Position numbers and translations under genes: made by a program. Source: Victivallales bacterium (lineage in GTDB: Bacteria; Verrucomicrobiota; Lentisphaeria; Oligosphaerales; Oligosphaeraceae). Taken from it: 64,000 nt of DNA. The DNA lies in assembly GCA_017417585.1 (NCBI GenBank), contig JAFPYX010000012.1, positions 1 through 64,000 on the forward strand, read 5' to 3'. Of this stretch, positions 1,937 to 5,404 are shown in pieces (position 1 is the stretch's first letter; the number at the start of each line of letters is the position of its first letter). A model generated the notes under the pieces. It was given only the letters and a program-made list of their open reading frames with translations. It was not told the DNA's origin and did no database searches.

Positions 1937-2004
1937 GTTGGTTTCCTCCTTCGTTTTTGAAATTCACTCTGAAACACTTGAAACTGCAAAAAAAACGTTA
2001 CCCT

Positions 2005-2439
2005 TTAGACGTCCTTCAGGAAAACCTTGATGACAATCTTGACCCAGTCACCGATCAGTTCCTTGGACTGCACCTGCCCGAAGACCAGCTTTCCGCCATC
2101 CATCAGGCGTGCCAGGACCTCGTTCTTCTCGCGCGGGACGTACCCAATCCGCTCATCCTGCTCGTTCAGGATCTGGATGGCCAGGCTGTCGAACTTGTTG
2201 TCGGCTTCGCGCATGAATTTCAGGATGCTTCCCTCCGCCAGCAAGGCGGTCTTCTGGTCGATGTCCTCCACATGCGTCGTGCCGGCAATGCGGCATTCGA
2301 TCAGGAAGATCTCGCGCACAAAGGGCATCGGGACGGTCAGCCCGCCGCCTTCACGCTTTATGGCGATTGCAAGCCCATGGAGTTCGTCGGCGCTGACTGG
2401 CACCAATCCCCCGCCTGTTGCGCCCGGCACGTCAGCCAT
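2005..2439 (-). CDS. HIRAN-domain protein
   Basis: The 144-residue protein carries a HIRAN domain over about residues 45-140: FLIECRIAGTTHV, READNKFDSLAIQIL and DERIGYVPREKNEVLARLMDGG match the family's pattern of a beta barrel with a conserved glycine-tyrosine-proline strand. HIRAN domains are known from helicases such as HLTF, where they bind 3' DNA ends, and also occur as small stand-alone bacterial proteins whose role is less clear. The gene starts inside the end of the J-domain gene (8-bp overlap, ATGGCTGA), so the two are probably translationally coupled. It is the last gene of a four-gene minus-strand unit. Confidence 0.85.
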   Translation of the reverse strand: MADVPGATGGGLVPVSADELHGLAIAIKREGGGLTVPMPFVREIFLIECRIAGTTHVEDIDQKTALLAEGSILKFMREADNKFDSLAIQILNEQDERIGYVPREKNEVLARLMDGGKLVFGQVQSKELIGDWVKIVIKVFLKDV

Positions 2440-3274
2440 TGCCCTGCCCTCCCCGGCTCCGGCGAAGTTTCTGCACCATCGCGGTCACCTCCTCCAGACG
2501 CGCCAGCAAATCCCCAATCTGCTGGTCCAGCAGACGACGACGCTCGGAGACCGCCTCGGGATTCGCCAGAAGTTCCTTCTCCGTGAAGGGGAATTGCGTC
2601 TGTATGGCCGCGATGCGTTCTTTGAGATCGGCGATCTTGCCCTCGAGCTTGACGATGCGCTGCTGGAGGACCTCCAGCGGATCCATCGTCTTCGTGGATG
2701 CGCGCTGTCCTGCCAGAATCTCCTCTGCCATGTCCTCGACAAGCCGCAGCTCCTGCAGGTCGTTTGCCTTGTAGGCGTCCATCGCCCGCCGCCACAGTTC
2801 CTCGGCAATCGGCGGCAGGTCGGCGTTGAGATCGGGATGCAGGCGCTTGGCCAGCTCGCGGAAGATCCGCTTGATTTCCTTGACCTCGGCGACCGTGAGC
2901 TTTTTTCCGCCCAGAAAGTCCTGTGCCTGGCGCAACTTGCTGTGCAGTTGTTCCACTTGCTCCCGGAACTGCTGGAACTCCTCGGCGAGCTGCTCTTCGA
3001 CCTCGTCGTCATCCAGTATAACCCCGTGGCTGGCGGCCGCCTGCCGGATGGAGAACTCGCGCCTCATGCGCTGAATCGCCAGTTTCAGCTCAAAAATTCT
3101 GGTCTCCTTGTGCCCGAAGGCCAGCTGGTATTCCGCCTCCAGCGCCTTTGTGTACGGCCCGTTCAGCTCGGCGTACTCCATCACCAGCTTCGTGTAGTTC
3201 TCCGCCAGCTCCGCAAGACGCGCCTCCGCGTCCTTCTGCCCAGGCTCCGGAAGTTCCTTCGTGAAATAGACCAT
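2432..3274 (-). CDS. J-domain (DnaJ-like) protein with coiled-coil flanks
   Basis: The 280-residue protein has a helical, coiled-coil-prone N-terminal half and a J-domain-like helix pair at about 125-180, with the diagnostic HPD tripeptide at residues 146-148 (FRELAKRLHPDLN). J domains recruit and stimulate Hsp70/DnaK. No zinc-finger or substrate-binding DnaJ domains follow; instead there is a second coiled coil to the C-terminus. The start at 3274 is chosen because AAGGAGAAGGAAG lies directly before this ATG. A longer frame to 3412 exists but its extra 46 residues look non-coding. It overlaps the HIRAN gene by 8 bp. The function of the pair is unknown. Confidence 0.75.
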   Translation of the reverse strand: MVYFTKELPEPGQKDAEARLAELAENYTKLVMEYAELNGPYTKALEAEYQLAFGHKETRIFELKLAIQRMRREFSIRQAAASHGVILDDDEVEEQLAEEFQQFREQVEQLHSKLRQAQDFLGGKKLTVAEVKEIKRIFRELAKRLHPDLNADLPPIAEELWRRAMDAYKANDLQELRLVEDMAEEILAGQRASTKTMDPLEVLQQRIVKLEGKIADLKERIAAIQTQFPFTEKELLANPEAVSERRRLLDQQIGDLLARLEEVTAMVQKLRRSRGGQGNG

Positions 3275-3369
3275 CTTCCTTCTCCTTGTCGCCAAACCGG
3301 CAATCAGCCCCCCCTGCGTGAACAGTGCGAAGCCCCTGACGATCGCGGCTTTTCCCTTCCTTGAAAACA

Positions 3370-3408
3370 CAAGCGCCCGCCTGGGGTTACGACCAGACAA
3401 GGCGCTTG
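3370..3408 (-). other. Possible hairpin between coiled-coil and J-domain genes
   Basis: CAAGCGCC (3370-3377) and GGCGCTTG (3401-3408) are complementary with a 23-nt loop, followed on the minus strand by TGTTTT. It lies in the 174-bp gap inside the four-gene unit and might attenuate transcription, but the loop is long and the T-run weak. Confidence 0.3.
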
Positions 3409-3448
3409 ACACGCAAAATGCAAACGATTCGCGCGAACCGGGGGATGC

Positions 3449-4813
3449 CTACTTGGCGGGTTTGGGAATCGTCGGCGTCTGCAGCTGCTCGGGCGTGTAG
3501 ATGGAGAAGAGCAGCTCGCGGATGAAGGCCAGCATGAAGAGCCGCGCCTCCAGGGACCCCTGGACGCTTTCAAAACTGTCCTTGACCTCATTCCAGAAGC
3601 CCTCCATGTCGCCCTGGCTGACCTCCAGCGTGCTGGAGTTGGCGATCTTGTGAATCAGCTCCGTTTCGCGGGCGGTGAAGTCGCCCCAGAATTTCGGGAG
3701 CACCTCCTCCAGCTTTCCGGTGGCGTCCTGATCGTAGTTGATTTTCTTGATAATCCGTCCGAAGCCGGCCTTCATCGTTGGGTTGGTCAGCTTGAGCTGG
3801 GAGCCCAGGCTCCGCCAGTCGATGCGGTCCAGCATCAAATCCACGAATTTCTGGTAGGAGCGCAGTTCCTCGACGGCCTTGGCCTTGTCGGCATTGGCGG
3901 CTTCCGCCTTGCTGTCCACCGCCTTGGCGTCCGCCACGATCTGGCGATTTGCCAGCAGCTGATCCTGGTATTTGTTCTGCCAGGCATTCAGTTCGGCTTT
4001 GTTCTTCTCCAGTTCCGCCTGCAGGCGGCTCACTTGCCGCTCGGCATTCTCGCTGGCTTCCTGGGCGCGCTTCTGCGCGGCCTCGCCGGTTTCGGCCAGC
4101 TTCGCGGCCAGTCGCCTGGTCTCGGCGGAGGCGCTGGTGAATTTCTGGGTCGCGGTTTCCAGCTCCGCCTTCATGGCGCGCTGCTGTTTCTTGAGTTCCT
4201 GGACCTCGGAGACGCTGGCCTGCAGCTGTGCGCGCACTCGCTCCACATCCGCCGTCGCGTCGGCGGCCTTCTTGTTCGCGGCGGCCAGCTGCGCCTCCAG
4301 CTCCGTCAGCTTCTCCTGGAGCTCTGCGGCGCCTTCCTGGTTGTTCAAGATCTTCTCGGCCTGCTCGGCGGTGAATTTCAAAGGGGCGAAGGCCAGGAGG
4401 AGCTTCCAGGCCTTATTCTCTTTCAGGTCATAGAACTCGTTGAACTTCTCGTCGGAAAGCACATAGTCCTCTTCCGTGAGCTTGTGCTCCGTGCGATAGG
4501 CCTTGTATTCCTCGGAGTGGAAATAATTCTCCAGTGCCTCATGGAGCTGTTCGTGAACCGGATACCAGGCCCCGAAGAGCGGCTGGCAGGCCGTCTCGGA
4601 AAAATCGTTTTTGGAGGCCTCGTTGACGACCAGTTTTTCAAGCCTCGGCCGCTGGTTGGGGTCGATGCGGTGTCCGCCAAGGGTGCAAATCTTCTGCAGC
4701 TGTGCGTTTTCGTTGATGTATCGGCTGAGGGTGCGCCACGGCAATTCCCCGACCATCATGGCAAAGAGGTCGGGAATCTTCACACCCTGGATTTTCTCGT
4801 TGTTGCCAAGCAT
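3449..4813 (-). CDS. Long coiled-coil protein of unknown function
   Basis: I do not recognise a family. The 454-residue protein has three parts: a helical head (about 1-150) with the pattern LPWRTLSRYINEN and many aromatic residues, a long Ala/Glu/Lys-rich coiled coil (about 158-320), and a conserved-looking helical tail (about 325-440) starting RIDWRSLGSQLKLTNPTMKAGFG. There is no signal peptide, membrane span or nucleotide-binding motif, so it should be cytoplasmic and elongated. It begins 7 bp after the stop of the small Q-rich gene and precedes the J-domain and HIRAN genes. The architecture suggests a scaffold or tether rather than an enzyme, but that is inference. Confidence 0.7.
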   Translation of the reverse strand: MLGNNEKIQGVKIPDLFAMMVGELPWRTLSRYINENAQLQKICTLGGHRIDPNQRPRLEKLVVNEASKNDFSETACQPLFGAWYPVHEQLHEALENYFHSEEYKAYRTEHKLTEEDYVLSDEKFNEFYDLKENKAWKLLLAFAPLKFTAEQAEKILNNQEGAAELQEKLTELEAQLAAANKKAADATADVERVRAQLQASVSEVQELKKQQRAMKAELETATQKFTSASAETRRLAAKLAETGEAAQKRAQEASENAERQVSRLQAELEKNKAELNAWQNKYQDQLLANRQIVADAKAVDSKAEAANADKAKAVEELRSYQKFVDLMLDRIDWRSLGSQLKLTNPTMKAGFGRIIKKINYDQDATGKLEEVLPKFWGDFTARETELIHKIANSSTLEVSQGDMEGFWNEVKDSFESVQGSLEARLFMLAFIRELLFSIYTPEQLQTPTIPKPAK

Positions 4814-4820
4814 CCAGGAA

Positions 4821-5183
4821 TCACTCCTTGTTGAGCATTTTTTGGGCTTCGTTGATAAAGGCTAAAATCATCTGCCGCCGCAGGGAACGGTCAATCTTCT
4901 GCATCGCCATCCGAATCTGCTCGGCCATCGCGGCCTTGTCCTCCACCAGGTAATATTCCATGGCGGAATAGCATGCCAGTTCGGCTTCGCGCCAGCGGTT
5001 CTCCTGGCAAAGCGCAATGACGGCGCTCATCTTGTCGTCCGAACTCTGCTTTTCCTCCTGCTGGCTCTCGGCAGCCTGCTGCTGTTGCTGTTGCTGACGG
5101 AGACGGCGCTTGGCCTTGCGGTCAAGCAACAGCTCGTCATCCTCATTAAAATCTTCTTCGTAACTAATGCGCTTTTTGGCCAT
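4821..5183 (-). CDS. Small charged protein with poly-Gln tract
   Basis: The 120-residue protein is unrecognised. Its N-terminal third is highly charged and contains an uninterrupted run of seven glutamines (RLRQQQQQQQAAESQQEE, residues about 28-45), followed by a helical segment MSAVIALCQENRWREAELACYSAMEYYL that resembles a TPR-like helix pair, and a basic C-terminal helix. It is the first gene of the four-gene minus-strand unit and ends 7 bp before the coiled-coil gene. Poly-Q runs are uncommon in GC-rich bacterial proteins, and the CAG/CAA mix here is mostly CAG/CAA alternating, so it is not a pure triplet microsatellite. Confidence 0.65.
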   Translation of the reverse strand: MAKKRISYEEDFNEDDELLLDRKAKRRLRQQQQQQQAAESQQEEKQSSDDKMSAVIALCQENRWREAELACYSAMEYYLVEDKAAMAEQIRMAMQKIDRSLRRQMILAFINEAQKMLNKE

Positions 5184-5329: not shown

Positions 5330-5404
5330 TGGAGGCGTGGATCGGATTCGGACCGATGAATAAAGGTTTTGCAGACCTTCGCCTTACCACTTGGCTACCA
5401 CGCC
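5330..5404 (-). tRNA. tRNA-Cys (GCA)
   Basis: On the minus strand the acceptor arm GGCGTGG pairs with CCACGCC. The anticodon loop CTGCAAA carries GCA in an AAGGT/ACCTT stem, and the T arm is ATCGG-TCCGAAT-CCGAT. U73, the cysteine identity base, and an encoded CCA are present. It is 75 nt long. Confidence 0.95.

Follow-up and report, generated by a model that had tools for sequence, protein, structure and literature searches.

A J-domain gene and a stand-alone HIRAN gene form a two-gene cassette in a Victivallales bacterium and across bacteria

Positions 2,005 to 5,183 of the 64,000-nucleotide (nt) stretch of Victivallales bacterium DNA analyzed here (assembly GCA_017417585.1, 3.26 Mb; contig JAFPYX010000012.1, positions 1 to 64,000; hereafter, the window) carry four closely spaced genes on the minus strand, encoding a poly-Q protein, a coiled-coil protein, a J-domain protein (the J protein), and a stand-alone HIRAN protein. 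The four open reading frames (ORFs) and their spacing—7 bp, 174 bp, and an 8-bp overlap—are present as stated in an earlier reading of the sequence alone. Its proposal that the four genes make up one unit, however, does not hold: the J and HIRAN genes form a real two-gene unit, and the poly-Q and coiled-coil genes are residents unrelated to it. The features of the locus are the following, with protein lengths in amino acids (aa).

2432..3274, minus strand: gene of the 280-aa J protein, with a helical coiled coil at the N-terminus, the HPD-bearing J domain in the middle, and a helical hairpin at the C-terminus
2005..2439, minus strand: stand-alone HIRAN protein gene (144 aa), with an 8-bp overlap with the J gene
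2831..2839, minus strand: codons of HPD, the Hsp70-stimulating motif (J residues 146-148)
1981..3464, no strand assigned: J-HIRAN insertion, without a blastn match at the syntenic locus L068 (same genus)
3363..3408, minus strand: terminator-like hairpin with a T-rich tail, in the gap separating the coiled-coil and J genes
3449..4813, minus strand: coiled-coil gene (454 aa); resident, outside the J-HIRAN system
4821..5183, minus strand: poly-Q gene (120 aa, with a run of seven Q); resident, outside the J-HIRAN system
5330..5404, minus strand: tRNA-Cys, a context marker that lies upstream of the resident pair

Pairing of the J and HIRAN genes across bacteria

HIRAN relatives came from a scan of GTDB genomes in which an alignment of three HIRAN sequences served as the query, and the best 80 of 466 were kept. 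Four sequences from relatives of the window went into the J profile. Directly upstream of HIRAN, the J family was found in 79 of these 80 best relatives, and the exception (L096) shows, by eye, a short J-like remnant. A J pairing filter kept 78 of the 80 loci (L096 is without J, and the J frame of L122 overruns HIRAN), and the distance between the two genes was observed to range mostly from an overlap to a few bases. HPD is present in 74 of the 78 loci, the exceptions being the short ORFs of L114, L120, and L147, plus L135, with HSD in its place. A phylum name is available for 76 loci, which represent 14 phyla, a figure that contamination may inflate, most of the genomes being metagenome-assembled genomes (MAGs). 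Carriers of the pair also include the named isolates Lacrimispora amygdalina and Caproiciproducens galactitolivorans, and a Victivallis-labelled MAG is among the carriers of the nearest J-HIRAN relatives found.

A reciprocal sample was obtained by comparing the J alignment with 391 genomes from the class of genome G072, of which 30 gave a match; HPD is present in 22 of these and absent from 8. HIRAN adjoins 21 of the 22 HPD-bearing J genes (one such HIRAN has an internal stop) and none of the 8 HPD-less J-like genes; that is, HPD is kept in 21 of 21 HIRAN-linked J genes of this J-based sample. Because seven of the HPD-less genes group as one clade and the eighth is a long branch, all within the HIRAN-linked J proteins—in a quick tree with long-branch warnings—they represent at most two events. 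In the clostridial J-like proteins of L217 and L219-L225, HPD is changed to HPEL or HPQV and HIRAN is lacking, and most of these loci adjoin, by eye, an apparent ABC transporter gene. Across 55 loci, J distances and HIRAN distances were found to correlate, with r 0.92, 0 of 2000 permutations as high, and a Spearman coefficient of 0.54.

Among 288 genomes of the window's phylum, 20 J matches were found at E<=1e-15, with 5 of them near-full-length. HIRAN lies beside all 5, namely in the own genome, three fetched loci, and G135, whose J match shares coordinates with the match in the L083 genome. The other 15 comprise one contig-end fragment and matches limited to the J domain plus the C-terminal part. 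This phylum also has a sister J family (L182-L185, L189, and L190; 315-405 aa), which shares the J domain and the C-terminal hairpin; it was rejected as the source of the signal, being separated in the tree, again a quick one with long-branch warnings.

The pair also occurs in viral DNA. In a first viral scan, the small HIRAN alignment gave no match; later scans found J-HIRAN in three IMG/VR viral contigs (L191-L193) and, in more divergent form, in L194 and L195. Two J proteins used as queries gave no match in 50,697 phage records or 72,556 plasmid records. Divergent HIRAN genes were also noted in 32 phage records, including those of Pseudomonas and Xanthomonas phages and Bacillus phage G (H3-H17).

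Separation of the cassette from the resident gene pair

Comparisons with relatives of the window showed J-HIRAN to be a cassette separate from the resident pair. Among 59 genomes searched, with the own genome counted, the coiled-coil protein was found in 42 and the poly-Q protein in 39; all carriers belong to the 47 genomes that share the window's genus, family, or order, and neither protein was found in the 12 genomes sharing the class only. The two genes are adjacent, by coordinates, in all 39 poly-Q-carrying genomes, mostly without J or HIRAN. Near-full-length J relatives were found in 4 of the 59 (own, G001, G026, and G044), and close relatives of HIRAN in 3 (own, G026, and G044); in G001, the J match ends 126 bp from a contig end, so that the HIRAN count does not bear on this genome. 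In G001 and G026, the J gene and the resident pair lie on different contigs. The window and G001 share 85% identity in the coiled-coil protein and 38% in the J protein, a difference that points to separate acquisitions.

An empty site is present in the same-genus genome G002 (locus L068), where the resident pair is followed by a thioredoxin-like gene, without J or HIRAN, and where 143 nt separate the matching blocks, versus 1,484 nt, including J and HIRAN, in the window. The cassette is thus mobile, and would have been gained horizontally as two genes. Furthermore, an 81-nt stretch between the coiled-coil and J genes contains a terminator-like hairpin (minimum free energy −30.7 kcal/mol, z −2.31) that was also picked up by a consensus terminator scan. 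G002 has a similar one after its coiled-coil gene, with a z of only −0.56. The hairpin by itself is weak evidence, because the terminator scan gave 8 sites versus 5.0 expected.

The four-gene unit of the sequence-only reading was rejected on these grounds: the distributions differ, the empty site exists in the same genus, and the hairpin in the 174-bp gap separates the pairs. When conservation of the four genes as neighbors was checked, the set was found in 0 of the 58 other relatives searched. Tight spacing on one strand would favor a four-gene complex confined to the window's lineage, but the hairpin, the empty site, the differing distributions, and the location of J off the resident-pair contig in G001 and G026 leave such a complex with hardly any probability. 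The proposed coupling of HIRAN to an Hsp70-recruiting J protein is far better supported than the sequence alone could show, but as a two-gene cassette of 14 named phyla and not as a four-gene set, and a cytoskeletal role, also suggested earlier, is unsupported for J-HIRAN.

With respect to the resident proteins themselves, family matches were weak or of coiled-coil type only, and no known family was matched in profile searches. By eye, the poly-Q protein looks like a tetratricopeptide repeat protein, and the 454-aa coiled coil has a conserved head and tail. The two genes appear as a lineage-restricted core gene pair beside tRNA-Cys, which was matched too in seven relatives' regions among those compared.

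The J and HIRAN proteins and a proposed mechanism

The J family profile matches solved J domains across HPD (best E 4.5e-7). In alignment A3, which holds the window and 56 of the 80 loci (J proteins of 262-305 aa), HPD is near-invariant—H in 57 of 57 sequences, P in 56, and D in 57—and Pro229 is invariant. The AlphaFold2 model is all helical (mean pLDDT 92.4, pTM 0.84), with helices within residues 11-122, at 128-145, and, after the HPD loop, at 155-169 and 173-188, followed by the C-terminal hairpin; the block-mean pLDDT of the helix-HPD loop-helix part exceeds 90. The J region put forward in the sequence-only reading is borne out by the motif, the profile, and the predicted helix-loop-helix. 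Whole-model Foldseek and VIA searches returned generic helical bundles and were uninformative, and neither a zinc-finger nor a client-binding domain was matched in the Pfam search. Hsp70 matches are present in the host genome, the best two being fragmented at contig ends. The near-invariance of HPD suggests that it stimulates DnaK, and the J protein likely recruits the cell's Hsp70.

The HIRAN domain, too, was correctly recognized from the sequence: the HIRAN profile (PF08797) matches at 52.5 bits versus a Pfam cut-off of 24.7 (E 4.5e-14). The model, confident from approximately residue 40 (mean 77.2), matches Lactobacillus plantarum lp_0118 with a Z of 19.2 (1.4 Å over 102 residues) and the HIRAN domain of HLTF with a Z of 12.9, and DNA complexes are among the structure matches. 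Alignment A4, of 72 of the 80 loci plus the window (HIRAN length 125-148 aa), has invariant columns that include G53, T54, R77, N81, D84, G99, P102, and N106 in all 73 sequences, with His or an aromatic residue (H/Y/F) at position 56 and Tyr or Phe at position 100. In HMMER alignments, N81 and D84, invariant in 73 of 73, align with N91 and D94 of HLTF. W132, found in 72 of 73, falls by offset within about one residue of the position of HLTF F142, a residue named as a DNA contact in PMC8262856. Fold and partly conserved pocket positions together suggest DNA 3′ ends or single-stranded DNA (ssDNA) as the likely ligands of the HIRAN protein. A second HIRAN gene of 99 aa was noted in the own genome (L078 123-756, contig C76) within a phage-like stretch; the gene beside it resembles, by eye and by its motif, a ClpS adaptor gene.

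The explanation that we favor, and to which we attach a probability just short of even, is that HIRAN positions the J protein to load DnaK at DNA ends or ssDNA. HIRAN would recognize a DNA 3′ end or ssDNA and act with the co-encoded helical J protein, physical contact between the two being suggested by the observed pairing of their genes. HPD of the J protein would then stimulate DnaK, such that Hsp70 is loaded at the DNA end or a stalled fork, where its target may be a repair, replication, or transcription complex that has stalled, or else DNA of an invader and its proteins. The earlier suggestion that the genes call DnaK to DNA stays a prediction.

Several points weigh against this explanation. 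That HIRAN binds DNA ends or ssDNA, that it forms a complex with J, and that DnaK is loaded at DNA are all predictions from sequence and models. As a single sequence, the J protein matches DnaJ (PF00226) under the Pfam cut-off (26.0 versus 27.8 bits, E 1e-5), and the N-terminus of HIRAN (~40 aa) is of low confidence in the model. The DNA contacts of HLTF also include R71, Y72, N91, Y93, D94, and H110; the position of R71 is mostly Thr or Ser in the family and is Thr in the window, so the DNA pocket is only partly conserved. The HPD-bearing J gene of G709 has no HIRAN in the 224 nt before the contig end. Moreover, the sister J family keeps HPD (in the proteins printed) with HIRAN within 8 kb in 0 of 6 loci; HPD thus needs no HIRAN, which counts against a strict HPD-HIRAN rule. 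Finally, the pair has no constant third partner, the largest cluster among 382 neighbors compared by blastp covering 5 loci.

Some of the same structural evidence bears on whether the family HIRAN instead binds RNA or protein, with the pair serving in quality control of ribosomes or proteins. SmpB is among the structures matched by the HIRAN model, the position of HLTF R71 is not conserved, and the HIRAN and SmpB folds are compared in a paper on CoCoNuT systems (PMC11090510). The SmpB matches, however, have a Z of about 4-6, far below those of HLTF and lp_0118, and the N/D pocket positions are invariant, which makes RNA or protein binding decidedly improbable.

Neighboring genes and known systems

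A general third partner was rejected: no neighbor cluster exceeds 5 loci, and the recurring neighbors—Sel1-repeat proteins, ADP-ribosylglycohydrolases, and McrC—are lineage-specific. A Sel1-repeat protein lies within ~75 bp in 5 of the 80 loci (all four of Actinomycetota and L160) and in 5 of the 21 J-based loci. McrC relatives were found near 5 of 80 and 1 of 21, respectively, with McrB and McrC directly after HIRAN in L236. ADP-ribosylglycohydrolase is fused to J, upstream of HIRAN, in L139 (4076-6004) and L153 (4170-5996), and directly follows HIRAN in L143 and L149, which have the same sequence around the gene start and were counted as one event; distant, weaker matches occur in L157 and L244. 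None of the three families was found in 20 control regions. The profiles were built from members of these same loci, and the finds beyond the profile seeds are L128, L160, and L242 for Sel1, L108 and L136 for McrC, and the weak L157 and L244 for ADP-ribosylglycohydrolase. The higher frequency of the last, at 5 of 80 loci versus 0 of 20 controls (240 kb versus 764 kb), may be due to chance; the evidence for its link is the fusion to J. In G026, J is immediately preceded by a gene for a macro-domain protein. These optional add-ons, present in some lineages, point to a stress or conflict role.

Defense genes were assessed with the PADLOC families (E<=1e-10). For the first and second neighbors of at least 100 aa (251 of 259, third neighbors being left out), 69 families were matched by 128 neighbors and 214 by 123; the J-based sample gave 91 for 114 neighbors (of 119, one of those dropped being a masked stretch), and the control, drawn from distal parts of pair-carrying contigs, gave 23 for 122 genes (of 136). 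These figures count families and not proteins, one restriction subunit matching 7 in the one case printed. Enrichment of defense genes near J-HIRAN, which the sequence-only reading had proposed to check, is suggestive only. As for the pair itself, the HIRAN match is confined to the C-terminal part of PDC-M03B, J gives matches of coiled-coil type to LmuB, and no single PADLOC system is matched by both.

Defense is the leading biological role among the rival explanations, although an unlikely one in our estimate. J-HIRAN would be an anti-phage or anti-plasmid module in which HIRAN senses the DNA ends of an invader and an effector is then activated or set free through J and DnaK. The PADLOC family counts and the McrC relatives, absent from the controls, favor such a role, as do the McrB and McrC genes of L236, a LlaJI endonuclease gene upstream of the pair in viral contig L191, and the requirement of host DnaJ for phage sensing by bNACHT25 (PMC12169576). 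Against it are the counting of families, the resemblance of the window's neighbors to housekeeping genes, the two J proteins without matches in the phage and plasmid records, and the fact that neither J nor HIRAN is an obvious toxin or nuclease. Viral contig L195 (74-2346) was also seen to carry an AAA ATPase gene, the divergent J-HIRAN pair, and a Vsr-like gene (by eye), in that order.

Overall, and tentatively, J-HIRAN may be an undescribed, widely transferred system in which a HIRAN end sensor directs Hsp70 through a dedicated J protein, with a Sel1 scaffold, ADP-ribosylglycohydrolase, and McrBC as lineage add-ons, in a chaperone-based pathway of DNA-damage response or genome defense. If so, ADP-ribosylglycohydrolase may strip ADP-ribose at the same DNA site. 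With 14 phyla, isolates, and natural ADP-ribosylglycohydrolase fusions, the system is small and directly testable.

The domains are already known, and the pair as a system is uncatalogued in PADLOC. A literature search that did not cover the original HIRAN paper (Iyer 2006) or Kile 2015, where an earlier mention is possible, found no published description of the J-HIRAN pair; nor did it find a described bacterial pathway with dedicated Hsp70 recruitment to DNA ends. In the same sources, bacterial HIRAN domains are called uncharacterized or assigned merely proposed roles.

HLTF and Rad5 have HIRAN domains of the same fold (Z 12.9 and 10.2), with the N/D positions invariant in the family. Unlike in these proteins, HIRAN here is a stand-alone protein of 144 aa without an SNF2 motor and with mostly Thr or Ser at the R71 position, and, unlike HLTF, the family carries the near-invariant W132 near the F142 position. 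The lp_0118 protein (PDB 3k2y), listed as uncharacterized, is likewise a small stand-alone bacterial HIRAN, with only 24% identity to that of the window. On the J side, class C J-domain proteins likewise hold a zinc-finger-free J domain within a specialized protein; unlike theirs, the J domain of the window is central in a helical protein, and its likely targeting partner is encoded next door.

HipI-HipN modules and diDNase-HIRAN-HipA clusters are likewise bacterial gene sets with HIRAN and a proposed conflict role (PMC8262856; PMC11706625), and for HIRAN domains of bacteria, roles as components of HipN antitoxins and as DNA-end sensors in Hip modules have been proposed (PMC8262856). By analogy with HipI-HipN-type toxin-antitoxin modules, HIRAN could be a regulated client or antitoxin-like partner whose folding or turnover J controls through DnaK, and the tight operon, patchy distribution, and at most one full-length J copy per genome in the 18 carrier genomes searched would fit. 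Unlike in those clusters, however, the constant partner is the J protein and not a HipA kinase, HipS, or diDNase: no kinase or toxin is constant, and the J gene holds the place of an adjacent HipA-type kinase gene in 79 of 80 loci. Furthermore, only ~40 residues precede the HIRAN domain, so a HipS-like domain (~100 aa) cannot fit, and we consider an antitoxin-like role improbable. Closest in gene number is ARPP-HIRAN (PMC9503650), a two-gene HIRAN neighborhood in an ADP-ribose context, recalling the J-HIRAN loci that carry ADP-ribosylglycohydrolase; unlike in J-HIRAN, the partner of HIRAN there is ARPP.

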